A DNA stretch of 64,000 nucleotides. It comes from Oceanispirochaeta crateris (GTDB lineage: Bacteria > Spirochaetota > Spirochaetia > DSM-2461). The notes under the pieces are model-generated. The model had not been told where the DNA came from. It made no database searches and saw only the letters and a program-made list of their open reading frames with translations. Of the stretch, positions 3,126-50,234 are shown one piece after another; position 1 is the first letter of the stretch; each line of letters opens with the position of its first letter. The stretch spans positions 3,762,439 to 3,826,438 of the forward strand of contig NZ_CP036150.1 of the NCBI RefSeq assembly GCF_008329965.1, read 5' to 3'. The position numbers were made by a program, and so were the translations under genes.

Positions 3126-4421
3126 TTATACATATCCCATTAGCCGTGGAAGAAGTAATGAAAGATCTGGTACAAAAGTAGTCAAAATTAGTGTAGGTAT
3201 CCATGCAAATAATATGAGAGAAAAAGTTGGTTTAAGCATTTCCTTGACATCAGCACCAGCGACTCTTCCCCCTAAATAAAGCAACGGTGCACATGGAGGT
3301 GTGACGTTGCCCATGCCAATATTGACACTTAATACGGCTGCAAATTGGATAGGTGTCATACCTAAAGCCATAACTACAGGGAGTAAAAGAGGAGCACTGA
3401 GGACTGTACCGCTGCAATCATCCATGAGCATACCGATAACGAGCATAAATAGGTTAATCATAATTAAAATTATTGCACGGTTAGAAGAAAGGGATGTTAA
3501 AAAATTCAAAATCAGGTCAGGCAAGTTCTCTGTCATAAACATACGGCTGAGAATTCCCACTGAAAATAGCATGACCATTATAACACCTGATGTCTCGCCG
3601 GCTTGGACCAAGGCCGCTTTGAAAGAAATAGAGTCAATTCGGTGATAGTAAAAAATACCAATTATCAGAGAGTAAATGACTGAGAATGCTGCACCTTCAG
3701 TAGCAGTCAAGACACCACCATAAATACTTCCTAGTAATAATATAGGCATCATGACAGCTGGAACTGCACTTCGTTGTTTTCTTTCCCCACTTTCTTTAAT
3801 TTCCTTCTTTAAAGGCTGAAAGTTAACCATATCCGGGTCTTTTTTCACAAAGTATGCATTCACAATGCTGAATAATGTAATAAGGATCACACCCGGAATA
3901 ATCGTTGCTAAAAAACAAGCTAGCACAGAGGTCCCAGTACCCCAAGCATATAAAATCATTAAAATGCTAGGTGGAATCATTATACCTAGCACCCCGGAAC
4001 TGGCAAGCATGGCACCTATTAAGCCGGGCTTATAGCCTTGTTCTTTCAGACGAGGTGTCATAATTGATCCAATGCATGACAACGTTGCAGTGGCACTTCC
4101 AGACACAGCACCAAACATAGCCGAGGAAATAATGGTTACTGTGCCAAGAGCAGCCTTAGAGCCCTTGCAAAGCTTCATTAACCCCTGAACTAGCTTTTCA
4201 CCGATGCCACCTTTGTCTATGATGGCGCCTGCCAAAACGAATAGAGGAATAGTCAGTAAAAGAATACTGTTTTGGTTGTTAAAGCCGTAAGAGAATAACA
4301 TTAGGGGATTAAATCCGCCAATGGTGCATATAAAAGCAGCGCATAGAAAGAAGGACAGAGGAATAGGAATGCCAACTGCCATGGCTAGAATTAATATTAA
4401 AAGAGCAATTAATGATGTCAT
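3126..4421 (-). CDS. dctM: TRAP transporter large permease, DctM family (system 1)
   Basis: Membrane subunit that couples sodium-driven uptake of a small carboxylate-type solute. It has 431 residues, normal for DctM, and about twelve hydrophobic segments. Family motifs seen are SILLLTIPLFVLAGAIIDKGG, SAMFGAVSGSATAT, PPSILMILYAWGTG and NVTPPCAPLLYLG. Its ATG shares one base with the stop of the upstream dctQ (TAATG), so the two are translationally coupled. It is the last gene of a dctP-dctQ-dctM operon on the minus strand. The substrate is unknown. The neighbouring ridA/UPF0597 pair hints at an amino-acid-like compound. Confidence 0.92.
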   Translation of the reverse strand: MTSLIALLILILAMAVGIPIPLSFFLCAAFICTIGGFNPLMLFSYGFNNQNSILLLTIPLFVLAGAIIDKGGIGEKLVQGLMKLCKGSKAALGTVTIISSAMFGAVSGSATATLSCIGSIMTPRLKEQGYKPGLIGAMLASSGVLGIMIPPSILMILYAWGTGTSVLACFLATIIPGVILITLFSIVNAYFVKKDPDMVNFQPLKKEIKESGERKQRSAVPAVMMPILLLGSIYGGVLTATEGAAFSVIYSLIIGIFYYHRIDSISFKAALVQAGETSGVIMVMLFSVGILSRMFMTENLPDLILNFLTSLSSNRAIILIMINLFMLVIGMLMDDCSGTVLSAPLLLPVVMALGMTPIQFAAVLSVNIGMGNVTPPCAPLLYLGGRVAGADVKEMLKPTFSLILFAWIPTLILTTFVPDLSLLLPRLMGYV

Positions 4422-4954
4422 TAGGCATTCCGTCCTTTAAAAATTTCTATAGATACTTTTGTGTCAATATTTTTGAGATCTAGAAATGAGGTGACGCAAT
4501 CGCGAATTAAATAGAATCCCCACATAAAAAAAGCTAAACACATAGGAAATTGCTGAAAGTAGTAGGGTATCTTGTGGACACTTGTTCTGGGTTTGAGAGC
4601 AATCGTCCAAGACCAATAGTCATAGCACCATTTTATCGCTACACAGCATATAGCTAAACTAAGGAGATCTTTGATGATTTCTTTGATAGAAATAATCCTT
4701 GGGTTTTGGGTAAAGATAGATACCATATCTGCATTAAGGTGTGTTTTAGATCGTGATGCGGAAATACTTCCAATAAAATACAGCCAGTAACCGAATATTA
4801 GTATAATCTCTTCAGAACCATAAAAATCAGTTTTCAATATGTAGCGCATAAACGCGCCTGTCATAATCAAAATCGTAACGATAGATCCTGATATAATGAT
4901 TATATAATCATAGATTATCTGCAAAACTTTATCTATATATGCAATAATTTTCAT
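4421..4954 (-). CDS. dctQ: TRAP transporter small permease, DctQ family (system 1)
   Basis: Four-helix membrane subunit of the TRAP system, 177 residues. The family pattern is visible: a first helix followed by FMRYILKTDFYGSEEIILIFGYWLYFIG (typical RY..........E(E)), then an amphipathic stretch and two more helices. It lies between dctP (138 nt upstream) and dctM (1-nt overlap). Confidence 0.88.
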   Translation of the reverse strand: MKIIAYIDKVLQIIYDYIIIISGSIVTILIMTGAFMRYILKTDFYGSEEIILIFGYWLYFIGSISASRSKTHLNADMVSIFTQNPRIISIKEIIKDLLSLAICCVAIKWCYDYWSWTIALKPRTSVHKIPYYFQQFPMCLAFFMWGFYLIRDCVTSFLDLKNIDTKVSIEIFKGRNA

Positions 4955-5092
4955 ATGTTTATATTACCCTCCTAATTTATATATCTTTGATCCATCCATT
5001 GAGGCAATATAGGATTTACATCTCTGCAAACCCCATATTGTCTCAATGGAGCCATTGTAAATATTCATTAGAAACTAGAACATAACTGGAAC

Positions 5093-6172
5093 TCATTCAT
5101 TAAAACTAGCTAGAACATTGTCCAAAAACTCCTGAGTAAAAGTTTGTGCTAGTTTTGGCCATACATTGGCACGAACAGCATCTGCAAAAGTCGCTCGTTC
5201 TGAATCAGAAAATTCAACGACTGTGACCCCACTCTCTTCCAAAAGGGTCTTGTATTTTCCCTCATCTTCTTGAGCTAACGATATGCTGTCAAGGCATTTA
5301 TCTTGGATAATCGTACGGATTGATTCTTGATCCTCCGGCAATAGTTTCTCAAAGGCAGTTTTACTTATCAGGATATGAGTAGCTTCTTGTACTTGTTGGT
5401 AATCATAGAAGTGATTAAGAACATCACGAAAATATTGGTAGTTTAGGTTTGCTGGACCACCAGCCCAACCATCCGCAAGACCAGTCTGAATTGATGTATA
5501 GGTATCTGAATATGGAATAGTTGTCGTTCGGAAACCTAGCTCTATATTACATTCAGCAAAAGTGTCCATAGCAGGAACTCTGATAAGAGCTCCTTTTTCA
5601 GCACCAACCACAGCAGCATCAGTCAGTTCAACATCGGTACCGACACCGTCAAAACCTTCACAAAAAAATCCCATCAGTTCTATACCTAATTTACTCTCAA
5701 TTTCGTGTATTGTTTTAAAAAGGTACGAATCAGGACTGTAAATAGTAGCCAGCTGATCATAGCCTGTGGCTAAGTAAGGCAAAAAAGTACCCAATAGGCG
5801 GGAATCATAAGCAGAATTAACAGAAATATGCCCCATTTCAACGCTTCCAAACATGATCTCATCAAACACACTCATGTAATCACCGAGCTGGTTGTCTGGG
5901 TAAAGAGTAATATTGACGCGACCATCAGTAGCCTCTTTTATACTGTCAATAATTTCTTTGTCTGCTAAAGTTACAAAAGAATCATTGGGATGTTGATTAG
6001 CCATACGCCATTCCACAGGAATGAAGTCATCAGTAGAAGTAAGGTTTGTTGATTTCTCTCCATCAGCAGAAGCATTGCTTGTGGATTTTTTGCCACCTCC
6101 ACAAGCAGAAAAAACGGAAATCAGAATGCAACACAAGAGAAGTGCACCCAATTTTTTTGCGGAATCCTTCAT
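5093..6172 (-). CDS. dctP: TRAP solute-binding lipoprotein, DctP family (system 1)
   Basis: Extracytoplasmic binding protein of 359 residues. The signal peptide ends in a true lipobox (SVFSAC at about residue 24), followed by a Gly/Ser/Lys-rich linker. This differs from the other binding proteins in the window, which lack the cysteine. The DctP fold is supported by NQHPNDSF, ITLYPDNQLGDY, the ligand-arginine region ALIRVPAMDTF, and TTIPYSDTYTSIQTGLADGW. First gene of dctPQM; its promoter (6228-6261) is nearly identical to one upstream of ridA. The substrate is unknown. The lipobox style and AT-rich codons suggest a different origin from the rest of the window. Confidence 0.9.
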   Translation of the reverse strand: MKDSAKKLGALLLCCILISVFSACGGGKKSTSNASADGEKSTNLTSTDDFIPVEWRMANQHPNDSFVTLADKEIIDSIKEATDGRVNITLYPDNQLGDYMSVFDEIMFGSVEMGHISVNSAYDSRLLGTFLPYLATGYDQLATIYSPDSYLFKTIHEIESKLGIELMGFFCEGFDGVGTDVELTDAAVVGAEKGALIRVPAMDTFAECNIELGFRTTTIPYSDTYTSIQTGLADGWAGGPANLNYQYFRDVLNHFYDYQQVQEATHILISKTAFEKLLPEDQESIRTIIQDKCLDSISLAQEDEGKYKTLLEESGVTVVEFSDSERATFADAVRANVWPKLAQTFTQEFLDNVLASFNE

Positions 6173-6227
6173 AATTATTTCTCCTTTCTTTAATTATGTT
6201 GATTGAATTAATTGCCAATTAAGGCAT

Positions 6228-6261
6228 GTTTATTATTGTTAGCTTTTCTGCTAGTTGTCAA
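6228..6261 (-). promoter_or_regulatory. Promoter of dctPQM (system 1), copy A of a duplicated promoter
   Basis: Read on the minus strand, TTGACA (6261-6256) is followed 18 nt later by AATAAT (6237-6232) within ACAATAATAAAC. ATTGTTAT lies just upstream. The dctP ATG is about 55 nt downstream. The TTTTGTTGACA and ACAATAATAAAC blocks and their 16-nt spacing recur at 6891-6929 on the plus strand. Confidence 0.7.
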
Positions 6262-6869
6262 CAAAATTATAACAATATCTTGTATTTATTCCTTGTTCTG
6301 TACAAAATATTTGTATTTTAGAAATTCTTCATAATTATTTAAATTTTGTGCAATCAAGGAGATGTATAGTTTTTTATAGCATTTAATCGAGTATTTTTCA
6401 CACTCTCCACATGAGAGAATGAATATAATTATAGATAGTCTTACTACTTATACTTTGGGTTTGTTATCCCTATTAAATCATTATTTATTCGGATTCGGAG
6501 ACTCTCTTAGCTCAAGCAACAGGTTTGACTGGTTGCTAAGATGATGTATCAACTTTTTGTTTTGAATATTGAAATCTCCATTGCTTTAGCTGATAGTTTT
6601 AACCAAAGCAACGGATTATAAATTTCCTATTCTATTTCTGTAGATAGTAGTTTTCGATTCAAACTTTCAGAAGTCGGAGTCTACACATATTCAGAACATG
6701 GTATTTCTAAAAGGTTTTCATTTGCCATAAAAGTCATTCTTCGAAAATTCATAGATACTCCTAACACTCTGATTCTTGTGTCTTAAGAACTCCTGTCAGT
6801 TGAAAAATTATTTTATCATTTTGGTTGGAAGAGTTTATCAAGGAATTAAAATATTGTATTAATGCGATC
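6262..6869. other. AT-rich intergenic region
   Basis: About 600 bp between two divergent promoters. I found no supported gene, RNA or terminator. Reading frames are short and broken in all six frames. A decayed gene cannot be excluded. Confidence 0.5.
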
Positions 6870-6929
6870 AAAATAACAATAAATTGTTATTTTTGTTGAC
6901 AGGTGCTAAAAATACAAACAATAATAAAC
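6870..6929 (+). promoter_or_regulatory. Promoter and palindromic operator of the ridA operon, copy B
   Basis: A perfect inverted repeat, AAAATAACAAT and ATTGTTATTTT with a 2-nt spacer (6870-6893), abuts a consensus -35 TTGACA (6896-6901). An AATAAT -10 (6920-6925) follows at 18 nt inside ACAATAATAAAC. The arrangement matches copy A upstream of dctP. The leader to ridA would be about 320 nt. The palindrome touching the -35 suggests a DNA-binding regulator here, possibly the YheO-type protein at 10.9 kb. Confidence 0.65.
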
Positions 6930-7251
6930 GTACAAAAACTGGCAAATCAATCTAATAGGAATATTTCTAATAGAAGATTCAGGAATGAGAACGATCTCTA
7001 TTTATTAACTAGTAATATGCAGAGGCCATTGTTGTTGAAACAGTCAGATATAATTCTAGGAATAAGAAATACATAGTCAGTTAGAGCGTTTCAGTGCTGT
7101 TAGGCTTAAAATTGATTGCATTCTGGATTCTAGGATTGGGATGATCTATGGATAAGTAGGACACTATTAATAATGGGTGTTGTTGGTACTTGTATAGTTT
7201 TAATTTCAAAAATTGAAAAATTTTAGAGATAATAGTAATAGGATGGATAAA

Positions 7252-7632
7252 ATGGATAAAGAGGTTTTAATTACTGATAAAGCACCGAAATCGGTGGGAC
7301 CGTATTCTCAGATGGTAAAGTGTGGAGATTTTCTGTTTATTTCCGGTCAGATTTCGGCAGATGTTAAAACAGGTGAAATCGTACATCAAGATGTTACAAA
7401 ACAAACGCACACTATTATGCGCACAATTAAAGATATGCTAGATGATGCTGGTAGTAATATGGATAAAGTTGTCAAATGTTCTGTGCATCTTTCTGATGCT
7501 ATATATTTTGAAGAAATGAACAATGTGTATCTTCAGTATTTTGATAATGGGTACCCGGCCAGGATTACTGTTTCTGGAGTACAGCTATATGATGGAGTCA
7601 ATGTCGAGATTGATGTTATCGCAGCAGTGTAA
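7252..7632 (+). CDS. ridA: RidA family enamine/imine deaminase
   Basis: Small cytosolic protein that hydrolyses reactive enamine/imine intermediates such as 2-aminoacrylate released by amino-acid dehydratases and desulfidases. From the ATG at 7252 it is 126 residues and starts MDKEVLITDKAPKSVGPYSQ, matching the usual RidA N-terminus. Upstream in-frame TTG (7213) and ATG (7243) would add non-conserved residues, and AGGATGG sits just before 7252. The conserved GPYSQ, FISGQI, and the arginine of ARITVSGVQ (usual R105-equivalent) are present. It lies 40 nt before the UPF0597 gene, whose predicted chemistry yields exactly this type of intermediate. Confidence 0.92.
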   Translation: MDKEVLITDKAPKSVGPYSQMVKCGDFLFISGQISADVKTGEIVHQDVTKQTHTIMRTIKDMLDDAGSNMDKVVKCSVHLSDAIYFEEMNNVYLQYFDNGYPARITVSGVQLYDGVNVEIDVIAAV

Positions 7633-7672
7633 TACTTGATTTATTGAATAAAAATAAATATTGGAGGCCTTT

Positions 7673-9016
7673 ATGATTACACATGATGATATTACCAAAA
7701 TGCTAGAAATGGAAATGCAACCTGCGTTAGGCTGTACTGGACCCACTGCCTATGCTCTTGCAGCAGCTCGGTGCAAGCCTTTTCTCACTGCTGATGTGAA
7801 TTTAATGAATATATACGTTAGCCCTGCTTTTTTAAAGATAGGCTTTGGAGTTGCGACTCCTGGTACAACAGAGCCGGGGATTGGGATTGCCGCGGCGATA
7901 GGACTATTGGGTGGTGATTATACACTCGGGATGGAGGTTCTGAAACCTTGCACTCCCCAGAATATTCAGAAGGCACAGCTCATGGTCGATGAAGGTAGGG
8001 TGCAGATCTTCAGTGACGGGGAGGAGACCGGTGTATATGTCCGTGCAGAGGTAATTACCAACAACGAAACGGTTATCACAATTCTTTCGGGTAAACATGA
8101 TGGTATCATCAGTGTATCAGTTAATGGCCAGGAAATGTTTCATAACGAAGACTCTCTGAAGGAAATTGAGCAAGATGAAGTTTTTTTAACCCCAGACATC
8201 ATCTTTGATTACATCTCCCATGTTGATACCAAGGAACTGCAATTTCTGTTGGACGGGTATAAGATGAATCTAGCTCTTGCTGAGGATGGTTTGAAAAATG
8301 AATTTGGATTGCATAGTGGACGGGCTTACCTCAGGTCTACGTTTCAGAAAAATAAAGTACCTGCAGATTTGTTTGAACAACCGTTAAAGTATCTGCCAGT
8401 AACTTTGGATAAAAAGGTACAAATTCTGGTTTCTGCAGCTTCCGATGCCCGTATGGGTGGTAGCAGTTATCCTGCCATGGCAGCAATGGGAGATGGTAAT
8501 CAAGGTATAACCGCTATTTTACCTGTTGGCCTTGCTGCAGAATCGTATAACTCCTCTAAGGAAGAGATGATTCGTGCACTAGCTTTATCTTGTCTGATGC
8601 TTTTCTTTGTAAAGATCCATATCGGACGTTCCGCTGCATTCTGCATGTGCGCAATCGCTGCTTCCGCTGGCGCCACAGCAGGTATTTGCTATTTAAAAGG
8701 GTTAGATGAAAAAGCGATCCGTGGAGCAGTTAAAAATTCAATTTCACCACTTGCGGGGATGTTATGTGATGGTGCCAAAAATGGGTGTGCATTGAAAATG
8801 TCAATTGCTAGTATGACTGCACTAAATGCAGTGGAGCTGGCTGAATCGGGAATTGAGGTTGGCTATTTTGATGGTGTGGCAGATAACACACTAGAAGAAA
8901 CTGTAAACTGCATTACTGACATTGCGAACAAGAGCATGGATTTACTTGATGAGTTGATGGTCAATAGTATTTTATTGAAAGAAGAAAGAAAAAGAAAAAA
9001 ATGCAAAACAATATAA
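7673..9016 (+). CDS. UPF0597 family, L-cysteine desulfidase-like (CyuA/YhaM) Fe-S enzyme, divergent
   Basis: Family members such as E. coli YhaM/CyuA and archaeal cysteine desulfidase use a [4Fe-4S] cluster to eliminate sulfide from L-cysteine, giving pyruvate and ammonia via an aminoacrylate. The ATG at 7673 follows GGAGG with good spacing; an upstream TTG would place the start inside the ribosome site. The protein has 447 residues. Candidate cluster cysteines are Cys21 (PALGCTGP), Cys324 or Cys326 (AAFCMCAIAA), and Cys365 (GMLCDGAKNGC). SDARMGGSSYPAM and GDGNQGIT are also conserved. The family motif usually reads GCTEP; here it is GCTGP, so the specificity may differ. It forms an operon with ridA. 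Confidence 0.82.
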   Translation: MITHDDITKMLEMEMQPALGCTGPTAYALAAARCKPFLTADVNLMNIYVSPAFLKIGFGVATPGTTEPGIGIAAAIGLLGGDYTLGMEVLKPCTPQNIQKAQLMVDEGRVQIFSDGEETGVYVRAEVITNNETVITILSGKHDGIISVSVNGQEMFHNEDSLKEIEQDEVFLTPDIIFDYISHVDTKELQFLLDGYKMNLALAEDGLKNEFGLHSGRAYLRSTFQKNKVPADLFEQPLKYLPVTLDKKVQILVSAASDARMGGSSYPAMAAMGDGNQGITAILPVGLAAESYNSSKEEMIRALALSCLMLFFVKIHIGRSAAFCMCAIAASAGATAGICYLKGLDEKAIRGAVKNSISPLAGMLCDGAKNGCALKMSIASMTALNAVELAESGIEVGYFDGVADNTLEETVNCITDIANKSMDLLDELMVNSILLKEERKRKKCKTI

Positions 9017-9167
9017 CACAAAAATTGCAGATAGATAATTTGAAAATACTACTTGTTGAGATTATTTCCTAATCAAGTCATCCTCTATAAATGGGGGTGA
9101 TCTATCCCCAATAAATCGTACCACAATATAGATTAGTTTTCAGCCAACAAATACAATGGAGGCTGAT

Positions 9168-9440
9168 ATGAAAAAGAGATTTACAGAAGAACAGATCGTA
9201 AAGATTCTGGGAGAACAGAAACTAGGTAAAAAGGTAAGTGACGTTGCCCGTGAATATGGAATCAGCGAAAATACTTTTTATATTTGGAAGAGAAAATACG
9301 CAGATATGACTTCCAAAGAAGTTGCCCGGTTAAAACAGCTTGAACAAGAAAATGAAAACCTAAAAAAGCTTGTAGCCAATTTATCACTGGATAATATGGC
9401 TCAAAAGGAAATCATAAAAAAGTTCTGCGACCCGGAGTAA
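9168..9440 (+). CDS. IS407-like transposase OrfA (HTH protein)
   Basis: DNA-binding OrfA of an IS3-family element, 90 residues from the ATG at 9168, which has GGAGG 5 nt upstream; the ATG at 9156 overlaps that site. It opens RFTEEQIVKILGEQKLGKKV. A helix-turn-helix follows (VAREYGISENTFYIWKRKYA), then a coiled-coil leucine-zipper region (LKQLEQENENLKKLVANL). The A-AAA-AAG heptamer at 9416-9422, in its reading frame, allows a -1 shift into orfB. Confidence 0.9.
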   Translation: MKKRFTEEQIVKILGEQKLGKKVSDVAREYGISENTFYIWKRKYADMTSKEVARLKQLEQENENLKKLVANLSLDNMAQKEIIKKFCDPE

Positions 9441-10273
9441 AAAGAGAAGCAGTAAGGCATATTGTGAAATACTTCGGGTTATCAATAAGAAGAGCATGTC
9501 GTTTAGTTCAAATTCCTCGATCTACTTATCTTTATGATTTAAAACCTAATGATGATGGTGAGATTATCAAAGAGATATATAAGATCCTTAAAAACAACTC
9601 TAAATATGGCTGTGGAATGATCCATCTAAAACTTCGACAGAATAGTATCGCTATTAATCATAAGCGCACTGAGAGGATCTACAACGAACTAGGGCTGCAA
9701 TTAAAGAGTAGGAAACGTAGGAAAAAGATTTCATCTGAGAATAGAGAGCCTGCGATCATTCCAAAAACACCAGGTAAACTATGGGCAATTGATTTTGTAA
9801 GTGATTCTGTTGGAAATCATAAGAAACTAAAAGTCTTAACAGTCATTGATCCAACAACGAATAGATCACCAATTATCCATGCTGGTTTTTCCATCAATGG
9901 AAGGCATGTTTCTGAAATACTGGATCGTGCAGGAGAAAAACATGGCTACCCTGAAACTTTACAATGTGATAATGGACCTGAGTTTAGAAGTAAAGAGTTG
10001 GACAAATGGTGCTATGAAAAGGGAATAAAAATCAGCTTTTCACGACCTGGAAAACCAACGGATAATTGCTACATTGAAAGTTTTAATGGGACATTTAGAA
10101 ATGAATGCTTAAATTCCCATTATTTTGAATCTATTACTGATGCAAGAGAAAAGATCGAAGATTGGTGGTCTGAATATAACTATGAAAGACCACAAAAACG
10201 GTTGAAAGGAATGACACCAATAGAATTTGAGAGTAAGCTAAAGAAGCTGAAAACTAAATCTGTTGTTGGGTGA
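9419..10273 (+). CDS. IS407-like transposase OrfB (DDE integrase)
   Basis: Catalytic domain of the OrfAB transposase. After the -1 shift the frame reads KVLRPGVKREAVRHIVKYFG and continues into IRRACRLVQIPRSTYLYD, the expected junction for IS407-like elements. A separate GTG at 9464 could also serve. The DDE residues are visible: AIDFVSDSV (D), LQCDNGPEF (D) and TDNCYIESFNGTFRNECLN (E). It ends RPQKRLKGMTPIEF as in relatives. The frame is uninterrupted. Confidence 0.9.
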   Translation, partial: KVLRPGVKREAVRHIVKYFGLSIRRACRLVQIPRSTYLYDLKPNDDGEIIKEIYKILKNNSKYGCGMIHLKLRQNSIAINHKRTERIYNELGLQLKSRKRRKKISSENREPAIIPKTPGKLWAIDFVSDSVGNHKKLKVLTVIDPTTNRSPIIHAGFSINGRHVSEILDRAGEKHGYPETLQCDNGPEFRSKELDKWCYEKGIKISFSRPGKPTDNCYIESFNGTFRNECLNSHYFESITDAREKIEDWWSEYNYERPQKRLKGMTPIEFESKLKKLKTKSVVG

Positions 10274-10290
10274 ATATTGGGGTGAGGTCA

Positions 10291-10520
10291 GGGGGATGAC
10301 AATGGTTAGCGTAGATGGTAACGTTTAGTTTGAAAAAATATGATGCAGCGTGTAGATTACAGTCTAAAATAGCGATTACCGCTAGAGTAATGGCTGTTTT
10401 AAAGAACGTAAATAGAACTTCTTGGATTCGATATTATCGAAAGTAAAGAAATCTGAAAAATTAAAAAAATATTATTGATAAATTGATGTTTACCACAGTA
10501 AAATCAGGATGTTCTCTGTA
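10291..10520. other. Intergenic stretch, probably decayed sequence
   Basis: Follows the IS407-like right end. One frame (about 10333-10446) is open for some 37 codons but is not recognisable and has no start signal. Confidence 0.4.
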
Positions 10521-10523
10521 AAA

Positions 10524-10590
10524 AAATGGTTGACTCCTAATGAGTAAGTAAGTAGGTATTATGAAACTATAACTGTGTCTTAACTGACAT
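10524..10590 (+). mobile_element. Decayed 3'-end fragment of an IS3-like orfB
   Basis: The stretch with GGTTGACTCCTAATGAG through TATTATGAAAC and CTTAACTGAC aligns without long gaps to the last ~60 bp of the IS3-like orfB at about 14958-15022, with scattered substitutions. It is a remnant of an older copy of the same element type. Nothing of its other end was found. Confidence 0.7.
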
Positions 10591-10599
10591 TTTGTATTT

Positions 10600-10876
10600 C
10601 ATGGTTGGAACCAAGATATCGTTTTAAATATTGTAATACAAAGTGTATACATCGATTTCTGGAAGATAAATATTCAGAAAAATTTGTATATTATTGCAGA
10701 ATCCAATCAAAAATAGTTTCTTAAGTTTATTGAGTGGATTCCACTCTAAGGAACAAACCCAATATTCACTATAGCTTAGTTAATGGGAACAGTCTACTAA
10801 TTATTAAATTAAGTTTATTGTGTATTCCATATAAGTATGGATATGTTATTTTTTTATTATGAAGGAATTGATTTCA
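10600..10876. other. Leader region of the YheO-type regulator
   Basis: AT-rich DNA with no gene. Several TTG/TAT-rich boxes could form promoters, but none is clear enough to call, and the dctP/ridA promoter motif is not repeated here. Confidence 0.4.
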
Positions 10877-11563
10877 ATGAATGATGAACATCCACTGTTG
10901 AGTCTTATGATTCCAATAGCTGATATTATTGCTAAAACTATCGGAGATAATTGTGAAGTAGCAATTCATGATTTGACGCATCCAAAACATTCTATCTTTT
11001 ATATTGTTAATGGATCATTGACTGGTAGAAAGAAATATGATGGGTTAAGTCCAGCTTTTAACGAATTGGTTCAACTTGCAACTCTTCATGAGGACAACTT
11101 AGTTAATTATTTTGATTCTGAGAACGGACACTTATTCAAATGTTCCAAGAGCCTAATTAGAGATGAGAACCAACATATTATTGGTTGTTTTTGTATTAAT
11201 ATTGCAATTGACAATTATTTACAAATGAAGAGTACTATTGATAGTCTTTGTGAAACGCAGCACATAGATAATCTTAATGTTCAGAAAACGCAAGCCGGGA
11301 ATTTAGATAGTAATATTTCAGAGCTAGTACATGATATGATAATCAATACATATTCCGAGTTAAAAGGAGCCAAATCAAAGCTTTCTAAAGCAGATAAAAT
11401 TGAATTGGTTAGATTTCTAAACGATAAAGGAATCTTCCGAGTGAAGGGTACAATTGAAATGGTTGGAGAATTATTAAAAATTTCAAAATTTACAGTTTAT
11501 AGTTATCTAGAACAAATAAAGTCAAATTCTGATCCTGCCTTGATTTCCCGGAGTAGTAGTTAA
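10877..11563 (+). CDS. YheO/DauR-type transcriptional regulator (PAS-like sensor + HTH), tail altered by an IS
   Basis: The N-terminal ~120 residues fit the YheO PAS-like domain (ADIIAKTIGDNCEVAIHDLTHP, FKCSKSLIRDENQHIIGCFCINI). The C-terminal ~60 residues fit the HTH_22/DauR domain (LSKADKIELVRFLNDKGIFRVKGTIEMVGELLKISKFTVYSYLEQI). Relatives regulate amino-acid catabolism genes, for example DauR and D-arginine use, so it may control ridA-UPF0597 and dctPQM. AAGGA lies 10 nt before the ATG at 10877; the ATG at 10859 lacks a ribosome site. The IS3-like element entered at 11530. The last ten residues (DPALISRSSS) are IS-encoded; restoring the target predicts an ending of SMNDD. Confidence 0.78.
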   Translation: MNDEHPLLSLMIPIADIIAKTIGDNCEVAIHDLTHPKHSIFYIVNGSLTGRKKYDGLSPAFNELVQLATLHEDNLVNYFDSENGHLFKCSKSLIRDENQHIIGCFCINIAIDNYLQMKSTIDSLCETQHIDNLNVQKTQAGNLDSNISELVHDMIINTYSELKGAKSKLSKADKIELVRFLNDKGIFRVKGTIEMVGELLKISKFTVYSYLEQIKSNSDPALISRSSS

Positions 11564-11594
11564 GACCGATTTTTAATAAAATGAGGTAATAACT

Positions 11595-11900
11595 ATGAAT
11601 GAGAAAAAAAGACGTCGCTATGATGCAGAATTCAAAAGAAACGCGATAGCACTTTCAGAAGAACCAGGTCGGACAGCTCACAGCGTAGAGCAATCCTTGG
11701 GAATTGCTAATGGTTTGATTGGGAACTGGAAGCGTCAACTTTCAACAAATGGTAACTTGGCATTTCCTGGTAATGGAATCGAGGCTTTGACTCCTGATCA
11801 AAGAAAGATTCGAGATCTTGAAAAGCAGCTTTATGATGCAGAGATGGACCGCGATATATTAAAAAAAGCATTGGCCATTTTCAGCAAAACACCGAAATGA
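11595..11900 (+). CDS. IS3-family transposase OrfA
   Basis: A 101-residue HTH protein starting MNEKKRRRYDAEFKRNAIAL after a GAGGT ribosome site, followed by a helix-turn-helix region and a coiled-coil DLEKQLYDAEMDRDILKKALAIF. A run of seven A (11861-11867) in the register A-AAA-AAA permits a -1 shift. The orfB frame is open from there, and the orfB ATG also overlaps the orfA stop (ATGA at 11897). Confidence 0.9.
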   Translation: MNEKKRRRYDAEFKRNAIALSEEPGRTAHSVEQSLGIANGLIGNWKRQLSTNGNLAFPGNGIEALTPDQRKIRDLEKQLYDAEMDRDILKKALAIFSKTPK

Positions 11901-12165
11901 AATACTTCTTTATACAAGAGTGTCGCTCTGAATTTCCGGTGGTGAGAATGTGCCATAATCTTAATGTCTCTGAGAGCGGATTTTATGACTGGCAAGGACG
12001 ATCAAAATCTTCCAGAAGGATAGCCAAAGAAAAACTGATGACCAAGATCAGTGAGCTTTTTTATGTTAAGCACAAACAAATGGCAGGAAGTCCTTTGATC
12101 ACAGAGGATTTGCATGATGATCCTCAGTATAAAACTGTCTATAGAAGCCGTGTAGCAGCTCTTAT
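11897..12165 (+). pseudogene. IS3-family OrfB, 5' part (split by IS21 insertion)
   Basis: N-terminal ~90 residues of the DDE transposase (MKYFFIQECRSEFPVVRMCHNL ... ESGFYDWQGR). The frame runs through the target CTCTTAT (12159-12165) into the IS21 element and stops at 12181. Joining 12165 to 14405 restores one frame reading RVAALMKEMGLRCKIQKQ, so the gene was intact before the insertion. Confidence 0.9.
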
Positions 12166-12227
12166 TGTCAACAACGCCTAAAAAGTTCCTGTATTCAGCG
12201 GTTTAAAAGTTCCGCTTTTGGGTAAAA

Positions 12228-12992
12228 TTAAACAGGATCAACGATCCCTATTTTCAACCGATCTTTCATCCGGTATGAATCCCCTTTAAGGCTCAGTACA
12301 TGAGCATGATGAAGTAGTCTGTCGATGGTTGCCGTGGCAATGGCTACATCGTCTAAAATCTCTGCCCACCGGCCGAAAGGCTTATTAGTGGTGATGATCA
12401 TACTGCCCTGTTCGTAACGCGTATTCACGATCTGGAAAAACAGATTTGCCTGTTCTTTTGACAGATTTTCATAACCCACTTCATCAACCAGAATCAGGTG
12501 TGGCTTACGCAGCCAGGTCAGCTTCCGTTTCAATCGCCCTTGTTCTCGTGCATGAGTCAAATTTTCCATCAGATCAATACAGCTGGTGTACCAGACGGTA
12601 TATCCGTTCTGACAGGCTTTGTGAGCCAGAGCCAGCATTAGATGGGTTTTCCCAAGACCACTGGGCCCCATCAGTACCAGGTTTTCCTTTCGTTCAATGA
12701 AAGCCAAGCTGGATAATTCTGATAACTGGGATGCCGTCAGGCCTCCTTTCAACCAAGATAGATCAAAGTCGTCTAATAGCTTAATCGACGGCATTCCTGA
12801 GAGTTTCAGCCGGCTTTTGGCTGCCCGTTCCCTGCGAGGAATATATTCCAGTTCCAGTAAATCAGCGATTGATTGGGAAAGAGTATTCTCTGTGTGAGAT
12901 TGAGCTTCAAGGTAACTTTCCAGTCCTGCAGCCATAAATTCCAGACCAAGGTCGTTCATTCTGTTTTCTATAGTCTCTTGCAGTACGTTCAT
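12228..12992 (-). CDS. istB: IS21-family helper ATPase IstB
   Basis: AAA+ ATPase of 254 residues that assists the IstA transposase in target capture. Walker A GPSGLGKTH and Walker B LILVDEVGY are clear, followed by the IstB signature around FFQIVNTRYEQGSMIITTNKPFGRWAEI. Its start overlaps the istA stop by 4 nt (ATGA), the normal IS21 arrangement. Confidence 0.95.
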   Translation of the reverse strand: MNVLQETIENRMNDLGLEFMAAGLESYLEAQSHTENTLSQSIADLLELEYIPRRERAAKSRLKLSGMPSIKLLDDFDLSWLKGGLTASQLSELSSLAFIERKENLVLMGPSGLGKTHLMLALAHKACQNGYTVWYTSCIDLMENLTHAREQGRLKRKLTWLRKPHLILVDEVGYENLSKEQANLFFQIVNTRYEQGSMIITTNKPFGRWAEILDDVAIATATIDRLLHHAHVLSLKGDSYRMKDRLKIGIVDPV

Positions 12993-14272
12993 GCCGTTGC
13001 CCCCATAAGCCTGTCATAGCTTCCAGGGTGGCGAACTTCAACTTCTGTTTGCATCAGTGGAGATTTAGGAAGATTATTTGTTTCAGGAACACGGGCAACG
13101 ACTTTCTTTGTCTCTCTTCGATTCTCCCTTTTCCAACGCTTCAGCAAAGACTCTCTGTCTTCCTGCCTGATTGATTCTGATTTTGATCCTTTGGGGAGAA
13201 GGTCAAAGGATCTTACTGACTCCTCGTAGATAAAGATTTCTCCGGTTCTCATCAATGTATCCACTTTCAGTACAGCAGTACGTCCGATATTCTGTGCCGG
13301 GACACTGTATTTGTTTGTTTCATAGCAAATTACACCTTCTCTGGAAACAATTATTTCTTTGATTAACCTTACATCAGGTGCAGCTGCCGAATTCCAGGGA
13401 TTCATAAATGCCTTTTCGTACTCAAAGCGCTCTTTCCGGGTCTCTCGGAACTGGCTCATCTGTTTTTCTACTATAGTATTGATCCACTGGGAAACGGCAT
13501 GATTGAGGTCTTTTAAAGTACCGGCTTGAGCTACCTCATTACGAATGAGAAAACTATGTCCAAGATAGCCGATAAAACGTTCTACCTTGCCCTTGGTTTG
13601 CGGTCTGCGTACCTGACAGCGAAGAGGGGTAAAACCGCAGGTTGATGCGAACTCCAAAAGTTTTGAGTTTACTTGCCAGACACTGCCGCTGTTGTACCAG
13701 GCGGTTCTCATGTTGTCATAGAGGATTTCTTTCGGAACAGCTCCGAAATATTTGAAAGCCATCAGATGAGCCTGTAGAAGCGTTGACGTGGTCATGTCTA
13801 GAGTGAACAGGACAAATGGAATTCTGCTGTAACCCAGAAGCATGACAAATGCATATACTTTTTGAAATCTACCATCAATCTCCATTTTTCCGCATTCTTT
13901 CCAGTCTACCTGGGCCTGGCGGCCAGGTTCTGTTTCAAAACGGATTACTGCTTTTTCAATGAGCTTTTTTCTGTGTTGACGTGCATAGTTTCTAAGAATA
14001 GTCATTTTGCCGGTGTAACCGGCATTTTTTAGCCTTTCGTGAAGGTAAACCAGATTAAAGTATGGATCATTTTCCAGAGTATCTTCTATTATGGGGTAGA
14101 ATGGTTTTAGGATACTTTCCCGGGTCTTTCTGGGATGAGTTCCAAACTCCGGATTTAGGTATTTTCTAACCATCCGGTCGCTAACTCCAAGATATTCAGC
14201 GATATACTTTTGGGTATGGCCTTGATTGGCCATGATGCGTGCTACATGCATGCGATCTTCCTTTGGACACAT
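12989..14272 (-). CDS. istA: IS21-family transposase IstA
   Basis: DDE transposase of 427 residues. The N-terminal HTH is KYIAEYLGVSDRMVRKYL. The integrase core shows QVDWKECGK (D), EILYDNMRTAW (D) and GKVERFIGYLGHSF (E). The C-terminal beta-barrel-like region follows. The frame is intact, so with istB and both ends present the element is potentially active. Confidence 0.94.
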   Translation of the reverse strand: MCPKEDRMHVARIMANQGHTQKYIAEYLGVSDRMVRKYLNPEFGTHPRKTRESILKPFYPIIEDTLENDPYFNLVYLHERLKNAGYTGKMTILRNYARQHRKKLIEKAVIRFETEPGRQAQVDWKECGKMEIDGRFQKVYAFVMLLGYSRIPFVLFTLDMTTSTLLQAHLMAFKYFGAVPKEILYDNMRTAWYNSGSVWQVNSKLLEFASTCGFTPLRCQVRRPQTKGKVERFIGYLGHSFLIRNEVAQAGTLKDLNHAVSQWINTIVEKQMSQFRETRKERFEYEKAFMNPWNSAAAPDVRLIKEIIVSREGVICYETNKYSVPAQNIGRTAVLKVDTLMRTGEIFIYEESVRSFDLLPKGSKSESIRQEDRESLLKRWKRENRRETKKVVARVPETNNLPKSPLMQTEVEVRHPGSYDRLMGATA

Positions 14273-14404
14273 AGGGGCAGGTTCCTTTTTGTAGAGGTTG
14301 TGGTAAACACTACTTTAGGATATTTGCCCCTTTTTATGTCATGAAAAGCGGAACTTTTTCGCCGCTGGATGTAGGAACTTTAGCACCGTTGTTCACACTC
14401 TTAT

Positions 14405-15020
14405 GAAGGAAATGGGGCTTAGATGCAAGATACAGAAGCAGTTTGTCGTTACAACAGATTCAGATCATAAAGAATGGATTCCTGACAACATTTTGAATCG
14501 TCATTTTAATCCAGAAATGCCCAATGTTGCCGTAGTTGGGGATATCACATATATCAAGGTTGCATCCAAGTGGATGTATCTATCTGTATTTATAGACCTT
14601 TATTCTTGTAAAGTTGTTGGCTGGGATCTTAACAAAAGTCTCTCTGCGGACTCTACCTGTAATGCCTTTAAAAAATATCTATATCGGAATAATAATCCAA
14701 AGGGAATGCTTGTTCATAGCGATCGAGGTATCCAGTATGCATCAGAACAATTCAGATCCCTTTTAGAGTCAGTGGATGCTGTCCAAAGTATGAGCCGAAA
14801 AGGAAATTGTTGGGACAATGCCGTTGCAGAATCATTCTTTCATACACTGAAAACACGATTGATTTATCACCGGAAATACCGAACGATGGAAGAATTGAAT
14901 AAGGATCTTTATTGGTATATTGAAATTTACTACAACAGGATCAGGAAGCACTCAGCAAATAATTGGTTGACTCCTGATGAGAAAGAAAGTAAGTATTATG
15001 AAACGGGAAATGTGGCTTAA
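14405..15020 (+). pseudogene. IS3-family OrfB, 3' part (split by IS21 insertion)
   Basis: C-terminal catalytic part of the split transposase. It shows VAVVGDITYIKVASKWMYL (first D), LVHSDRGIQYAS (second D), GNCWDNAVAESFFHTLKTRL (E) and the usual end YYNRIRKHSANNWLTPDE. An ATG at 14403 keeps it open alone, but without the HTH half it should not act as a transposase. Confidence 0.9.
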
Positions 15021-18427: not shown

Positions 18428-19711
18428 TTATTTGAATACTATTGAAGGGAGCCAGGTTGAAACTTCCGGAACGAATGTGACAAGAAGGAGTACAATAATA
18501 TTGCAGACTATAAAGGGAAGTGCATGCCTGGCAATCTTGGTTATGGATAGACCGCAAATTTTAGTTGCTGCATTCAGACACATTCCGACAGGAGGAGTCA
18601 CTAAACCAATGGCTAATCCCACAATCATCATAGCACCAAACTGTAGGGGATGAATACCATAGCTTGCCATGACTGGAAGCAGGATCGGGCTGAGGAGATA
18701 TAACGCCGCTGGTACATCCACAAATGTTCCAATGACCAGGATAATCAGGTCCACAATGATCAACACCCAGTATCGATGTATATTAAGATTAGTAAGGAAG
18801 GCCGCTATGGTCTGGGGAACCTGTTCTATGGATAGCACCCATGTATAGATTGTCGAAAATCCTACTATGAAAAGGACAACACTGGAGAAAAGTATTGTCT
18901 GAAGCAAAGCGTCCCAGAGATCTTTGAACTTCAGCTCTTTATAGACAAAAAATCCAAGAATGAGGGAGTATAACACGGCTATTCCGGCAGATTCTGTGGC
19001 CGTAGCAATCCCGAAGGAAATGGAAAATATAATAAATACTGGCATCAGTACAGCAAGAATTCCGCCCCAGCTTGAGCGTAAAAACTGTTTAAAACTGATA
19101 TCCTCAATTTCATGAATATAGCCTTTTTTTCTGGATATTACGGAAACCATAACAATCTGTGTTAATCCAATCAGCAAACCCGGAATTGCGCCTGCAAGGA
19201 AGAGTGCTCCCACTGATTGTTGTGAAATCATTGCAAACATCAGCATGGGAATACTGGGGGGAATGATCATCCCCATTGTTGATGACGCAACAGTCACACC
19301 TGCTGAAAATCCCTTGCTGTAACCTTTTTCTTCCATTTGCGGGATCAACACAGATCCTATGGCTGATGTATCGGCAACAGAAGAGCCGGATATCCCACCG
19401 AAGATCATGCTGGCCACAACATTGACTTCGCCCAGGCCTCCCTTGATCGGGCGGACCAAATACAAGCTGAAATCAATGATCCGGCGGGTGATGCCTCCCT
19501 TATTCATGAGATTACCAGCCAGAATAAACAGTGGCAGGGCAATGAGAACAAAGCTGTTTGTTCCAGCCCAAATCCTTTGAGGGAGAATATTGATAAATCC
19601 AGGATTCTCAATGAAAAAATATATAAATCCGGAGGCTCCCAGAGCAAAGCAGATGGGTATCCCTAATAAAATAAAGATTACGAGACTTCCGAGTAGAATT
19701 GTAATGCCCAT
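18428..19711 (-). CDS. dctM: TRAP transporter large permease, DctM family (system 2)
   Basis: 427 residues with about twelve membrane segments. Motifs include FVLIALPLFILAGNLMNKGGI, MIFGGISGSSVADTSAIGS, MIIPPSIPMLMFA and LVTPPVGMCLNAA. Start and dctQ stop overlap (TAATG). It sits in the operon dctP-dctQ-dctM-iclR. Neighbouring uronate-type genes suggest a sugar-acid substrate. Confidence 0.93.
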   Translation of the reverse strand: MGITILLGSLVIFILLGIPICFALGASGFIYFFIENPGFINILPQRIWAGTNSFVLIALPLFILAGNLMNKGGITRRIIDFSLYLVRPIKGGLGEVNVVASMIFGGISGSSVADTSAIGSVLIPQMEEKGYSKGFSAGVTVASSTMGMIIPPSIPMLMFAMISQQSVGALFLAGAIPGLLIGLTQIVMVSVISRKKGYIHEIEDISFKQFLRSSWGGILAVLMPVFIIFSISFGIATATESAGIAVLYSLILGFFVYKELKFKDLWDALLQTILFSSVVLFIVGFSTIYTWVLSIEQVPQTIAAFLTNLNIHRYWVLIIVDLIILVIGTFVDVPAALYLLSPILLPVMASYGIHPLQFGAMMIVGLAIGLVTPPVGMCLNAATKICGLSITKIARHALPFIVCNIIVLLLVTFVPEVSTWLPSIVFK

Positions 19712-20184
19712 TATGCAAGATCCTCCTTTTTAAAGAACATAAAGATGTGAATCAGACAGTACAATCCAATGAGGAATGAACTGATAGGCATCATATAGTA
19801 GAAAAATCGTATAGGGACACGGAGACCGTTGGTCAGAACGTTTCCCACCCGCCCTATCCACTGGAGGCTGGTATAAAAAATGGCAATCTGTAATAGAAAG
19901 ATAAGCAGATAATTGAGGATTTCGGCCGCCTTATGCACTAGGGGTGGAAATTTTTCGGAAAGGAGGCTGATTTTTATATGTTCATCGTATTTCATACTCA
20001 GAACTGCACCAAAATAAGTTGTAGAAATAAAGAGCATAGTGATCAATTCCTCTGCCCACACGAAGGTCATTCCAAAGAAATAGCGCATAAAAACAAATAT
20101 AATGACAAGGGACATCATGGATAGGAGTAAGATGCGGCAGAAAACCTCATATATACTCACAATTTTTTCTATAGCAGATTTCAA
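19711..20184 (-). CDS. dctQ: TRAP transporter small permease, DctQ family (system 2)
   Basis: 157 residues, four membrane helices. VFMRYFFGMTFVWAEELITMLFISTTYFGA is the family signature. It lies 92 nt downstream of dctP and overlaps dctM by one base. Confidence 0.9.
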   Translation of the reverse strand: MKSAIEKIVSIYEVFCRILLLSMMSLVIIFVFMRYFFGMTFVWAEELITMLFISTTYFGAVLSMKYDEHIKISLLSEKFPPLVHKAAEILNYLLIFLLQIAIFYTSLQWIGRVGNVLTNGLRVPIRFFYYMMPISSFLIGLYCLIHIFMFFKKEDLA

Positions 20185-20276
20185 AATATAACTCCTGGGA
20201 TGTTTCTTTCAAAAAAAAACGGAAAAGCATTAAATCCTTATTCAATGTTTTCCGTTCTAAGTGTGTAAAGATTGAA

Positions 20277-21293
20277 TTAATTACCTGAGGCTATTTTTCT
20301 GATTTCGTCGATATCAGCCTGAGAAATAATTCCCTTATCAATGTAATATTTGTAAACAGGTTGAACCTTATCAATGAAGACTTTCCTTTGGGCATCATTG
20401 AGAACATTCACTTCCATGTTTGCCTTGAGTACTTCATAACTGGCGAGAGATTCCTTTTGTAGGAGTTCATCGTTGAGGATCATGTGGTCTCTGGCACATT
20501 CAACCAGGATTTCCTGGAGTTCTGAAGAGAGTTTATTGAACCAGTCTAAGGGGACATAAAGCATTTCGGCATGGTATTGGTAGTTCACAACCGACAGATA
20601 CTTCTGAACTTCATAAAATTTCATTTTATCAATATTTGTATAGGGATTTTCCTCACCATCGGCAACACCTGTCTTGAGAGCCATATACGTTTCGCTAAAG
20701 GGGATGGATACGGGATTTCCACCCAGGGTTTCCATGATTTTGACAATACTTTCCATGGGGGGAGTTCTAATCTTCAGGCCCTTGATATCCTCTGGTTTTG
20801 TGATGGGTCTTGCATTGTTTGTAAACTGTCTAAACTCACCGGAATCACCGACGGCTAGAACTTTAATACCGTTTTTTTCGGTATTCTTGATAATTCTCTC
20901 GGTGATTTCACCCCTTGTTACCCTGTGAACAGCATCCATATCGCTGAATAGGAAGGGCATTGTATAAATGAGTAGTTCGGGGGCTGCATCTTCAAAAGGA
21001 CCGCATCTTAGGCCTTCCAAAGCATTTAGTTTGACAGCTTCAAGCATTTCCATTTCCGTTCCAAGTTGCCCAGAGGGGTAGAGTTCAACGACGATGGCCC
21101 CATTGCTTTTGGCTTCTACATTTTCCTTAAAGCTGAGGAGAGATTCATGACGGGAGGTATTCACAGGAAAGGAATGACCAATTTTCATAACCATAGGGGC
21201 ACTGCCGGCAGCAGTTTCATTTTGTCCTGATGTAAAGCCATTGGTGCAAATCAGTATTGAAAGCATCATCACAATCATCAATTTTCTTTTCAT
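20277..21293 (-). CDS. dctP: TRAP solute-binding protein, DctP family (system 2)
   Basis: 338 residues from the ATG at 21293, which has AAAGGAG 7 nt upstream; a longer start would add 14 residues before the signal peptide. The signal peptide ends near FTSGQNETAAG with no lipobox cysteine. The DctP fold is supported by KIGHSFPVNTSRHESL, LYPSGQLGTEMEMLE, the carboxylate-binding arginine in GLKIRTPPMES and PFSETYMALKTGVADGEENPYTNI. The IRTPP motif is typical of binding proteins for sugar acids and related carboxylates. Confidence 0.92.
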   Translation of the reverse strand: MKRKLMIVMMLSILICTNGFTSGQNETAAGSAPMVMKIGHSFPVNTSRHESLLSFKENVEAKSNGAIVVELYPSGQLGTEMEMLEAVKLNALEGLRCGPFEDAAPELLIYTMPFLFSDMDAVHRVTRGEITERIIKNTEKNGIKVLAVGDSGEFRQFTNNARPITKPEDIKGLKIRTPPMESIVKIMETLGGNPVSIPFSETYMALKTGVADGEENPYTNIDKMKFYEVQKYLSVVNYQYHAEMLYVPLDWFNKLSSELQEILVECARDHMILNDELLQKESLASYEVLKANMEVNVLNDAQRKVFIDKVQPVYKYYIDKGIISQADIDEIRKIASGN

Positions 21294-21309
21294 ACTGGAA
21301 CTCCTTTTA

Positions 21310-21324
21310 TCCCATAATGTGGGA
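21310..21324. promoter_or_regulatory. Operator-like inverted repeat in the dctP leader
   Basis: TCCCATAATGTGGGA shares the core CATAATGTG with the palindrome at 21547-21561, upstream of the divergent gntR. It lies 16 nt before the dctP ATG. Confidence 0.5.
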
Positions 21325-21546
21325 ACTTGTTTCATTATAGAGGATAAATATGAGCTGTCAATAAAAATAAAAGGTTTATTATATATTAGTAAAAACGGAA
21401 TAAATCGTTCTGCAGTAAGGATTAATACCTATTAACAAATACGTTCCTCTTAAGAGGGAAGCATTTGGCTTATTCGTCGTTGTTTGTCAGTTTATGAGCC
21501 GAATATTCATGATGAAAATTATTGAAACTGCCTAATTGAATAGAGT

Positions 21547-23423: not shown

Positions 23424-24110
23424 ATGACAAAAAAAGAACAAGTCTTGGAAGACTTGAAAAATAAGATTGTTTCGGGTGAGATAACACCCGGATCATGGTT
23501 GACTGAGCGGGAAATTGGGGAAGCCTATAATATTTCACGTACACCCGTTAGAGAGATTCTTTGGAATCTTGCTAATTTGAATATTATTGAAGATGAAGGA
23601 GACCGGGGATACCGGGTTATCAAGTATTCTATTGATGATATTATTGAAGTCTTTAATGCCCGAAAGGCAATTGAAGGAGAATGTGCCCGTCTTGCCTGCC
23701 ACAGCAATGATGCTGATTATGCAAGCAGGATAGAGGCTTTGCAGCTGGAATTACTTTCTGCCAGGGAGGATGAAGATCCTGCAAGGTTAGTCGAGATCGG
23801 TAGCAAGGTGCATGAGTTTATACAGGAAAAGGCGAACAACAGGTACCTGACCGCCTTTAATACAAGAATCTTTTCTTTGGTAGCTATACTCAGAAATACG
23901 GCAAAGGTGTATAGAGACATAGAAAAGGAGTCAAAATTAGGGCATCAGGAGATCCTGGAAGCTTTGGCCGCAAGAGACAGTAAGCGCTGTGCAAATGTTA
24001 TGCGTGCCCATTTACAAGCTACCTGTGTCGCAATTGTTCAATTTGGTTGTAATCATCTACTGGGAGTAGATGATCAAGATATTATATTTCGTGAAGGAGA
24101 AATCTTATGA
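23424..24110 (+). CDS. GntR family transcriptional regulator (FadR/FCD subgroup)
   Basis: 228 residues. The winged HTH (GSWLTEREIGEAYNISRTPVREILWNLANLNII) is followed by an FCD-type domain (VFNARKAIEGECARLACH, KLGHQEILEALAARDSKRCANVMRAHL). The stop overlaps the tctC start (ATGA), so it is the first gene of a regulator-TTT-aldolase operon and probably represses its own promoter through the site at 23391-23410. Confidence 0.92.
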   Translation: MTKKEQVLEDLKNKIVSGEITPGSWLTEREIGEAYNISRTPVREILWNLANLNIIEDEGDRGYRVIKYSIDDIIEVFNARKAIEGECARLACHSNDADYASRIEALQLELLSAREDEDPARLVEIGSKVHEFIQEKANNRYLTAFNTRIFSLVAILRNTAKVYRDIEKESKLGHQEILEALAARDSKRCANVMRAHLQATCVAIVQFGCNHLLGVDDQDIIFREGEIL

Positions 24111-25087: not shown

Positions 25088-25160
25088 TCCCTGATTAAGC
25101 TAGATGAGTGATAGGCGGCTTTGTCGCTTGTCACTCTTTTTTTAAGGAGTCATTTAAATA

Positions 25161-25688
25161 ATGAATAGTAAAAAACCTTACCTTAACGCTAATGTTCTGA
25201 CTCCGGTCGGAATTATTGTTATTCTTATTGGATACATAGCTGAAGCACTAAGAATGTCAAGTGTTATTAAAATGGGATTACCTTCGGAATCCTTTTTTCC
25301 TTTTATGATATTTCTGCTCGGATTCCCTATTGCCGTTTTTCTCCTGATACAAGGAATAATAGATACAAAAAAGAAAATTGCTGCAGAACCCTGTACTGTA
25401 CAGGAAACTGAAGATTCCGTCAGTGAATCAGCAGAAAAGGGACGCATGATCAATCCTGCACATAAGCCCTTTCTTATCACACTTTTAACCTTTATTTTTA
25501 TTATGCTTTTCAAGTATCTGGGGTACACATTAACGGCACCTCTCTATCTGTTTTTCTTTCAGATGATCTACGATGATAAGATGGAACATATTCCCAGAAA
25601 AATAATAACCTCATTAGCTGTAACAGTCTTTGTATACATACTATATGTTGGTTTTTTCAATATTTTATTCCCGGAGGTATGGAAATAA
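25161..25688 (+). CDS. tctB: TTT small permease TctB (system A)
   Basis: 175 residues with four hydrophobic segments: a first pair around VGIIVILIGYIAEAL and FFPFMIFLLGFPIAVFLL, a hydrophilic loop, and a second pair. Typical TctB topology. It ends one base before the tctA start. Confidence 0.88.
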   Translation: MNSKKPYLNANVLTPVGIIVILIGYIAEALRMSSVIKMGLPSESFFPFMIFLLGFPIAVFLLIQGIIDTKKKIAAEPCTVQETEDSVSESAEKGRMINPAHKPFLITLLTFIFIMLFKYLGYTLTAPLYLFFFQMIYDDKMEHIPRKIITSLAVTVFVYILYVGFFNILFPEVWK

Positions 25689-25689
25689 T

Positions 25690-34132: not shown

Positions 34133-34210
34133 CTCTTGTACTCCTTTTCCGCCTCAAGGCGAAAATTTATTATTAAAAAGCCATTTTTGGTGGCAAGAAA
34201 CCAAAACACA

Positions 34211-45168: not shown

Positions 45169-45170
45169 AA

Positions 45171-45680: not shown

Positions 45681-45744
45681 AGTTTTCCTTGATAAACAGG
45701 CCCGGATATTAATCCGGGTGACCTGTTTTTAATAATGGTTAAAA

Positions 45745-46800: not shown

Positions 46801-46822
46801 ATACATTCCTCCTAATTTTTGT

Positions 46823-48601: not shown

Positions 48602-48660
48602 TTTTTCATTTTGTGTGCAATACACCTAAGGGTGAAATGAAATATATAAGGAGTTTTTTT

Positions 48661-49638: not shown

Positions 49639-49702
49639 GTTCATACGACCGTCTCATTCAGGTTTAACTTGAATCGGGCGGTCTTTTTTTTAAGGAGTTC
49701 AT

Positions 49703-50227: not shown

Positions 50228-50234
50228 AAAATTA

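Follow-up and report, generated by a model that had tools for sequence, protein, structure and literature searches.

The window, the whole 64-kb stretch of Oceanispirochaeta crateris contig NZ_CP036150.1 that was analysed, contains a complete TRAP transporter gene set in which one solute-binding protein and two permease subunits are encoded side by side, with Pfam matches above cut-offs. A divergent pair composed of ridA and a UPF0597 gene lies on the other side of an AT-rich intergenic region (Table 1). The preliminary description of this DNA had placed dctPQM on the minus strand and ridA with the UPF0597 gene on the plus strand, an arrangement that was borne out by profile searches. It had also placed a YheO-type regulator after the UPF0597 gene; this regulator is present, but an IS3-type element intervenes.

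Table 1. Features of the TRAP–ridA–UPF0597 locus (window positions).
Feature	Positions	Strand	Matches and remarks
dctM, TRAP large permease	3126-4421	-	PF06808 260.6 bits; TIGR00786 above cut-off
dctQ, TRAP small permease	4421-4954	-	PF04290 52.8 bits
dctP, TRAP solute-binding protein	5093-6172	-	PF03480 and NF037995 above cut-off; lipobox-like N-terminus VFSAC
Divergent intergenic region, AT-rich, 1.07 kb	6173-7242	.	G+C 0.29; presumably regulatory
ridA, Rid-family enamine/imine deaminase	ORF 7213-7632	+	TIGR00004 129 bits (cut-off 106.25)
UPF0597/SDH_alpha protein, GCTGP variant	ORF 7661-9016	+	PF03313 157 bits
IS3-type element, orfA and orfB	9156-10273	+	HTH_Tnp_1, rve, rve_3; outside the module
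YheO-type regulator	10859-11563	+	PAS_6 and HTH_22; module membership unproven

The probable start of ridA is the ATG at 7243 or 7252, and that of the UPF0597 gene, which encodes a product of 447 aa, is the ATG at 7673 with GGAGG upstream. Because the two genes are separated by 40 bp and share one strand, they probably form a single transcript. The RidA protein contains PAR and VEID motifs, which we take to carry the catalytic Arg and Glu of the Rid family. A scan of the region between dctP and ridA for an operator returned weak repeats and no clear candidate; an 11-nt perfect inverted repeat was located at 6870-6893. Third-position G+C in the module genes was 0.24-0.37 versus 0.38-0.52 in the other window genes measured, a weak sign of foreign origin.

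The stretch 9156-15020 is rich in IS elements. Judged by translations alone, an IS21-type istAB-like pair (12228-14272) seems to have inserted into an IS3-type element at 11595-15020, giving a nested arrangement. Further TRAP or tripartite tricarboxylate transporter-like systems were identified in the window at 18428-21335, 24107-27243, 33146-36178, 43870-46806 and 48613-51746, and their number suggests a host specialised in organic-acid scavenging.

Active site and phylogeny of the GCTGP proteins

The AlphaFold2 model of the window UPF0597 protein (pLDDT 89.9) was most similar among solved structures to Methanococcus maripaludis CyuA (MmCyuA; 9he0, Z 41.5, 384 residues), followed by L-serine dehydratase (Z 25.1). 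The codons from about position 7730 (GGC TGT ACT GGA CCC) encode GCTGP in place of the usual GCTEP. A single pattern-limited scan across 84,980 species genomes recovered five further proteins with this motif, and the presence of GCTGP in all six members excludes a sequencing error. The six proteins are 49-70% identical to one another and about 25-36% identical to ordinary homologues.

We compared active-site residues in an alignment of the six GCTGP proteins with 39 ordinary homologues, using MmCyuA numbering. Position 25 is glycine in all six and in none of the 39, of which 36 carry glutamate and three aspartate. Coupled with this loss of Glu25 is a second change, which the preliminary description had missed: position 237 is aspartate in every GCTGP protein and serine in every ordinary homologue of the alignment, as well as in all additional proteins inspected, among them E. 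coli CyuA, the Desulfobaculum and Phocaeicola proteins and paralogues from the member genomes. This aspartate, residue 274 of the window protein, belongs to the GSGNQG loop and is two positions away from Asn239. The cluster cysteines 287, 329 and 336 are kept in 6/6 members (C324, C365 and C372 in the window protein), and so are Cys23, Arg223, Asn239 and Lys339. Both the GCTEP to GCTGP change and the retention of the cluster cysteines, which the preliminary description had read from the window alone, are thus confirmed by codons and alignment across the clade.

In MmCyuA, which carries the motif GCTE, Cys23 and Glu25 are both essential; the E25A, E25Q and E25D variants all lack activity, Glu25 is proposed to act as the base that abstracts the alpha-proton, and Asn239 binds an anion at the substrate-carboxylate site (PMC12647591). 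At the level of sequence, the GCTGP enzyme has exchanged one acid at the active site for another close by, and the new aspartate probably either takes over as the base or touches the substrate at a new place. The variant is of more interest than the preliminary description could have known, since it is the proposed catalytic base that was replaced, while a different active-site position has acquired an acid.

A tree of 52 proteins recovered the GCTGP members as monophyletic (support 100/100), set apart from the ordinary GCTEP proteins, E. coli CyuA among them, by a long stem (2.0 changes per site); it was rooted at its midpoint and leaves the clade either nested within or sister to the ordinary proteins. 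The window protein paired with a Clostridiales protein (100/98), suggesting horizontal transfer from Bacillota. The clade is rare. No further member turned up when about 1,500 genomes related to the host or to three of the member lineages were sampled (host class 395, host phylum 393, order of the L025 genome 394 and three families of about 160 each, with partial overlap). A plasmid search yielded ordinary homologues alone (<=34% identity), one scan of viral contigs yielded a single ordinary homologue, and literature on UPF0597, or on TRAP transporters and hydroxyproline, contained nothing about the GCTGP variant. In three of the five other GCTGP genomes, a distinct UPF0597 paralogue with a GCTEP/GVTEP-type motif is encoded as well.

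The window GCTGP protein shares with characterised CyuA enzymes (MmCyuA and E. coli YhaM/CyuA) the whole fold, as predicted, together with the retained residues listed above, and differs from them in the substitutions at positions 25 and 237 and in its separate clade. With the [4Fe-4S] L-serine dehydratases (SdaA/SdaB; LpLSD) it shares the SDH_alpha catalytic domain and its cluster cysteines. However, those enzymes also contain SDH_beta and an SSSHT motif with the catalytic histidine, whereas the GCTGP protein has no PF03315 match and no such motif.

Gene neighbourhoods and relatives of the transporter

At three of the six loci (the window, L023 and L025) the GCTGP gene has linked TRAP genes, as compared with none of the 44 ordinary UPF0597 loci, in which flanks of up to about 6 kb were inspected (Fisher p 0.001); at the other three GCTGP loci TRAP was absent within the contig. 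The linked transporters are orthologous (67-76% identity): dctM orthologues adjoin the GCTGP genes in L023 (74%) and L025 (71%), dctQ orthologues are present in both (67-68%) and a dctP orthologue in L025 (67%). L023 and L025 come from Bacillota genomes, and their gene orders differ from that of the window. The recurring core is the TRAP transporter with the GCTGP enzyme.

The preliminary description had proposed a four-family module and suggested looking for its co-occurrence in other genomes. Its TRAP part stood, given that the TRAP–GCTGP association is not unique to the window and recurs in two other genomes. The four families as a unit did not: a YheO-type gene adjoins the GCTGP gene in the window alone and was not found at the five other loci, and RidA is present at two of the six (the window and L025). 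In addition, RidA and a YheO-type regulator flank an ordinary GCTEP desulfidase in Desulfobaculum, and we accordingly rejected both as specific markers of the variant.

This Desulfobaculum bizertense cluster (L119; plasmid NZ_CP090010.1, 65509-69338) comprises RidA, an unlisted stretch, ordinary CyuA and the YheO-type regulator. It resembles the window in combining RidA, UPF0597 and YheO-type genes, but its enzyme carries the ordinary GCTEP/GSGNQG motifs and a related TRAP was not found there. RidA also adjoins ordinary UPF0597 enzymes in three spirochaete loci.

Other neighbours recur among the GCTGP loci. L025 also encodes an XRE regulator that recurs in L026. Related amidohydrolases adjoin the GCTGP gene in L024, L026 and L027; their closest models are Xaa-Pro dipeptidase, for which they score 221-257 bits, below the cut-off of 500. 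In L026 an ATC_hydrolase-family (L-2-amino-thiazoline-4-carboxylate hydrolase) gene at 12624-13085 follows the GCTGP and amidohydrolase genes. A fused 540-aa divergent serine-dehydratase-like protein with the motif SSSHTAAP is encoded beside the GCTGP gene in L023 (2210-3826) and L025 (6402-8021) and scores below curated L-serine ammonia-lyase cut-offs. The host genome contains no counterpart of it except an ordinary serine dehydratase. On a Serratia plasmid, the gene for a 42% relative is preceded directly by one for a 365-aa protein that matches no Pfam family.

The nearest annotated relatives of the TRAP transporter, on plasmids, are accompanied by proline-racemase-family genes at four loci and by sarcosine-oxidase genes at three distinct loci. 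One of the proline-racemase loci contains an ornithine-cyclodeaminase gene, another combines a DHDPS-family gene with an FAD enzyme, and RidA occurs at some of the nearest loci. Counting near-identical loci once, proline-racemase-family or sarcosine-oxidase genes were present at 7/11 distinct near TRAP loci and at 0/7 distant ones. This count leaves out the intermediate locus L134, which groups with the near set and encodes a DHDPS-family protein, an aldehyde dehydrogenase and an FAD enzyme. Two related loci whose DctP proteins are identical have D-serine ammonia-lyase near the TRAP genes, and a further one has threonine enzymes there. In a DctP tree whose rows were picked by similarity and not by neighbouring genes, the window and L025 proteins fell inside the near group of ten (support 99/98). 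These comparisons point to proline-like or secondary amino acids as what the window transporter may serve; because the relatives used for ligand inference are proteobacterial and about 30-48% identical, the proline-like assignment is a lead and not a ligand.

A similar set of families is known from genome neighbourhoods of trans-3-hydroxyproline dehydratase, which include TRAP, ABC and peptidase families (PMC4113996). The hydroxyproline clusters described there, in which members of the proline racemase superfamily occur with TRAP, ornithine cyclodeaminase and peptidases, share with the GCTGP loci a related TRAP, RidA and, in three loci, peptidase-like neighbours. In contrast, the host genome has no match to PF05544 (proline-racemase family) or PF02423 (ornithine-cyclodeaminase family), so that the standard hydroxyproline routes are missing, and an Fe-S lyase is found instead. 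An ordinary L-serine dehydratase is encoded elsewhere in the host genome.

Proposed function and competing readings

With moderate confidence, we favour a horizontally acquired, transport-linked catabolic module of an anaerobe that performs Fe-S-dependent elimination on a beta-substituted amino acid, perhaps a proline-like one and probably one other than L-cysteine. The gene content, the clade, the residue swap, the predicted fold and the recurrence with TRAP are directly seen; the cluster, its chemistry, the kind of substrate and what RidA does are inferred as follows. The cargo of the transporter would be a carboxylate resembling an amino acid, with a proline-like compound or some other secondary amino acid the likeliest. 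The GCTGP enzyme, with its CyuA fold, is expected to hold a [4Fe-4S] cluster, as indicated by the three conserved ligand cysteines, and the cluster iron would act as a Lewis acid in an alpha,beta-elimination on a beta-substituted substrate other, in all probability, than L-cysteine. The base for the alpha-proton could not be position 25, which is glycine; Asp274 (MmCyuA 237) probably stands in for it or makes a new substrate contact. Elimination would yield an enamine or imine, which RidA may hydrolyse to a keto acid and ammonia.

The suggestion in the preliminary description that the substrate may not be cysteine is a reasonable one in view of the removal of the proposed catalytic base, the separate clade and the TRAP–GCTGP recurrence. 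In the literature examined, this Fe-S fold is described with two activities, cysteine desulfidation and serine dehydration. The natural, fixed loss of the essential Glu25, together with an aspartate gained by the substrate-carboxylate site, offers a direct test of substrate and base choice in the family, and the variant hints at an undescribed route of amino-acid degradation in gut-type anaerobes. The clade also gives reason for caution where UPF0597 proteins are labelled cysteine desulfidase automatically.

In one specific version of the favoured reading, which we regard as unlikely, the substrate is not proline-like and the enzyme would be a lyase acting on a linear beta-hydroxy amino acid, for instance L- or D-serine or threonine. 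The relocated acid would attack the alpha-proton from a different face, and RidA would clear 2-aminoacrylate or 2-aminocrotonate to pyruvate or 2-oxobutyrate with no extra special enzyme. The superfamily includes L-serine dehydratases, the fused serine-dehydratase-like gene accompanies GCTGP in L023 and L025, and D-serine ammonia-lyase and threonine enzymes occur near related TRAP genes; the lack of proline-racemase and ornithine-cyclodeaminase families in the host is likewise in keeping with it. However, the host already encodes an ordinary L-serine dehydratase, and the TRAP relatives indicate secondary amino acids more often than serine or threonine.

In its most specific form, the favoured reading makes the enzyme a [4Fe-4S] lyase with the cysteine-desulfidase fold whose catalytic acid has moved from position 25 to 237 and whose reaction is the dehydration of 3-hydroxyproline or a similar cyclic amino acid, so that it would be the anaerobic equivalent of the proline-racemase-type dehydratases. 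We consider both this enzyme as a whole and its 3-hydroxyproline (or related cyclic) substrate rather improbable. Removal of Glu25 would make space for the ring, elimination would yield Delta2-pyrroline-2-carboxylate, and RidA would take the cyclic enamine or imine. Its appeal lies in the TRAP relatives beside proline-racemase-family genes (one with ornithine cyclodeaminase, one with a DHDPS-family gene), in the Xaa-Pro-dipeptidase-like partners of L024, L026 and L027, and in the TRAP, ABC and peptidase families linked with trans-3-hydroxyproline dehydratase (PMC4113996). It is weakened by the lack of an ornithine-cyclodeaminase-type pyrroline-2-carboxylate reductase in the host genome, and by amidohydrolase scores under the dipeptidase cut-off.

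Against the favoured reading, a base at position 237 could still permit cysteine as the substrate. An enzyme that is still an L-cysteine desulfidase, with the aspartate as its new base and the module serving cysteine import and sulfide release, seems to us comparably doubtful. The fold shared with MmCyuA, the remaining active-site residues and the RidA and YheO-type genes that flank ordinary CyuA in Desulfobaculum are compatible with it, but even the E25D change inactivates MmCyuA (PMC12647591), and three of the five other GCTGP genomes hold the additional GCTEP/GVTEP-type paralogue. Furthermore, cysteine import for CyuA in E. coli is provided by the permease CyuP (PMC9040844) and not by a TRAP transporter, to which the GCTGP gene is linked.

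That unrelated neighbours were assembled by IS elements around an inactive enzyme is very improbable. The locus borders an IS-rich stretch and an IS element separates the regulator, but ridA and the enzyme gene lie 40 bp apart on one strand, TRAP and GCTGP recur in two Bacillota genomes in other gene orders, and the active site is strongly conserved across 49-70% identity. Least probable of all is the import of a cyclic cysteine derivative (thiazoline or thiazolidine carboxylate) on which the lyase would act once the ring is opened, a reading consistent with the ATC_hydrolase-family gene of L026, although this occurs at one of six loci and the family name does not fix the substrate.

A second variant of the UPF0597 family, with GVTEP and GSGAHG motifs (Cys23 to Val, Asn239 to Ala), was identified at L099 (6004-7290) and L111 (414-1763). 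It sits on a long branch of its own in the tree, and the L099 gene has a YheO-type regulator nearby.
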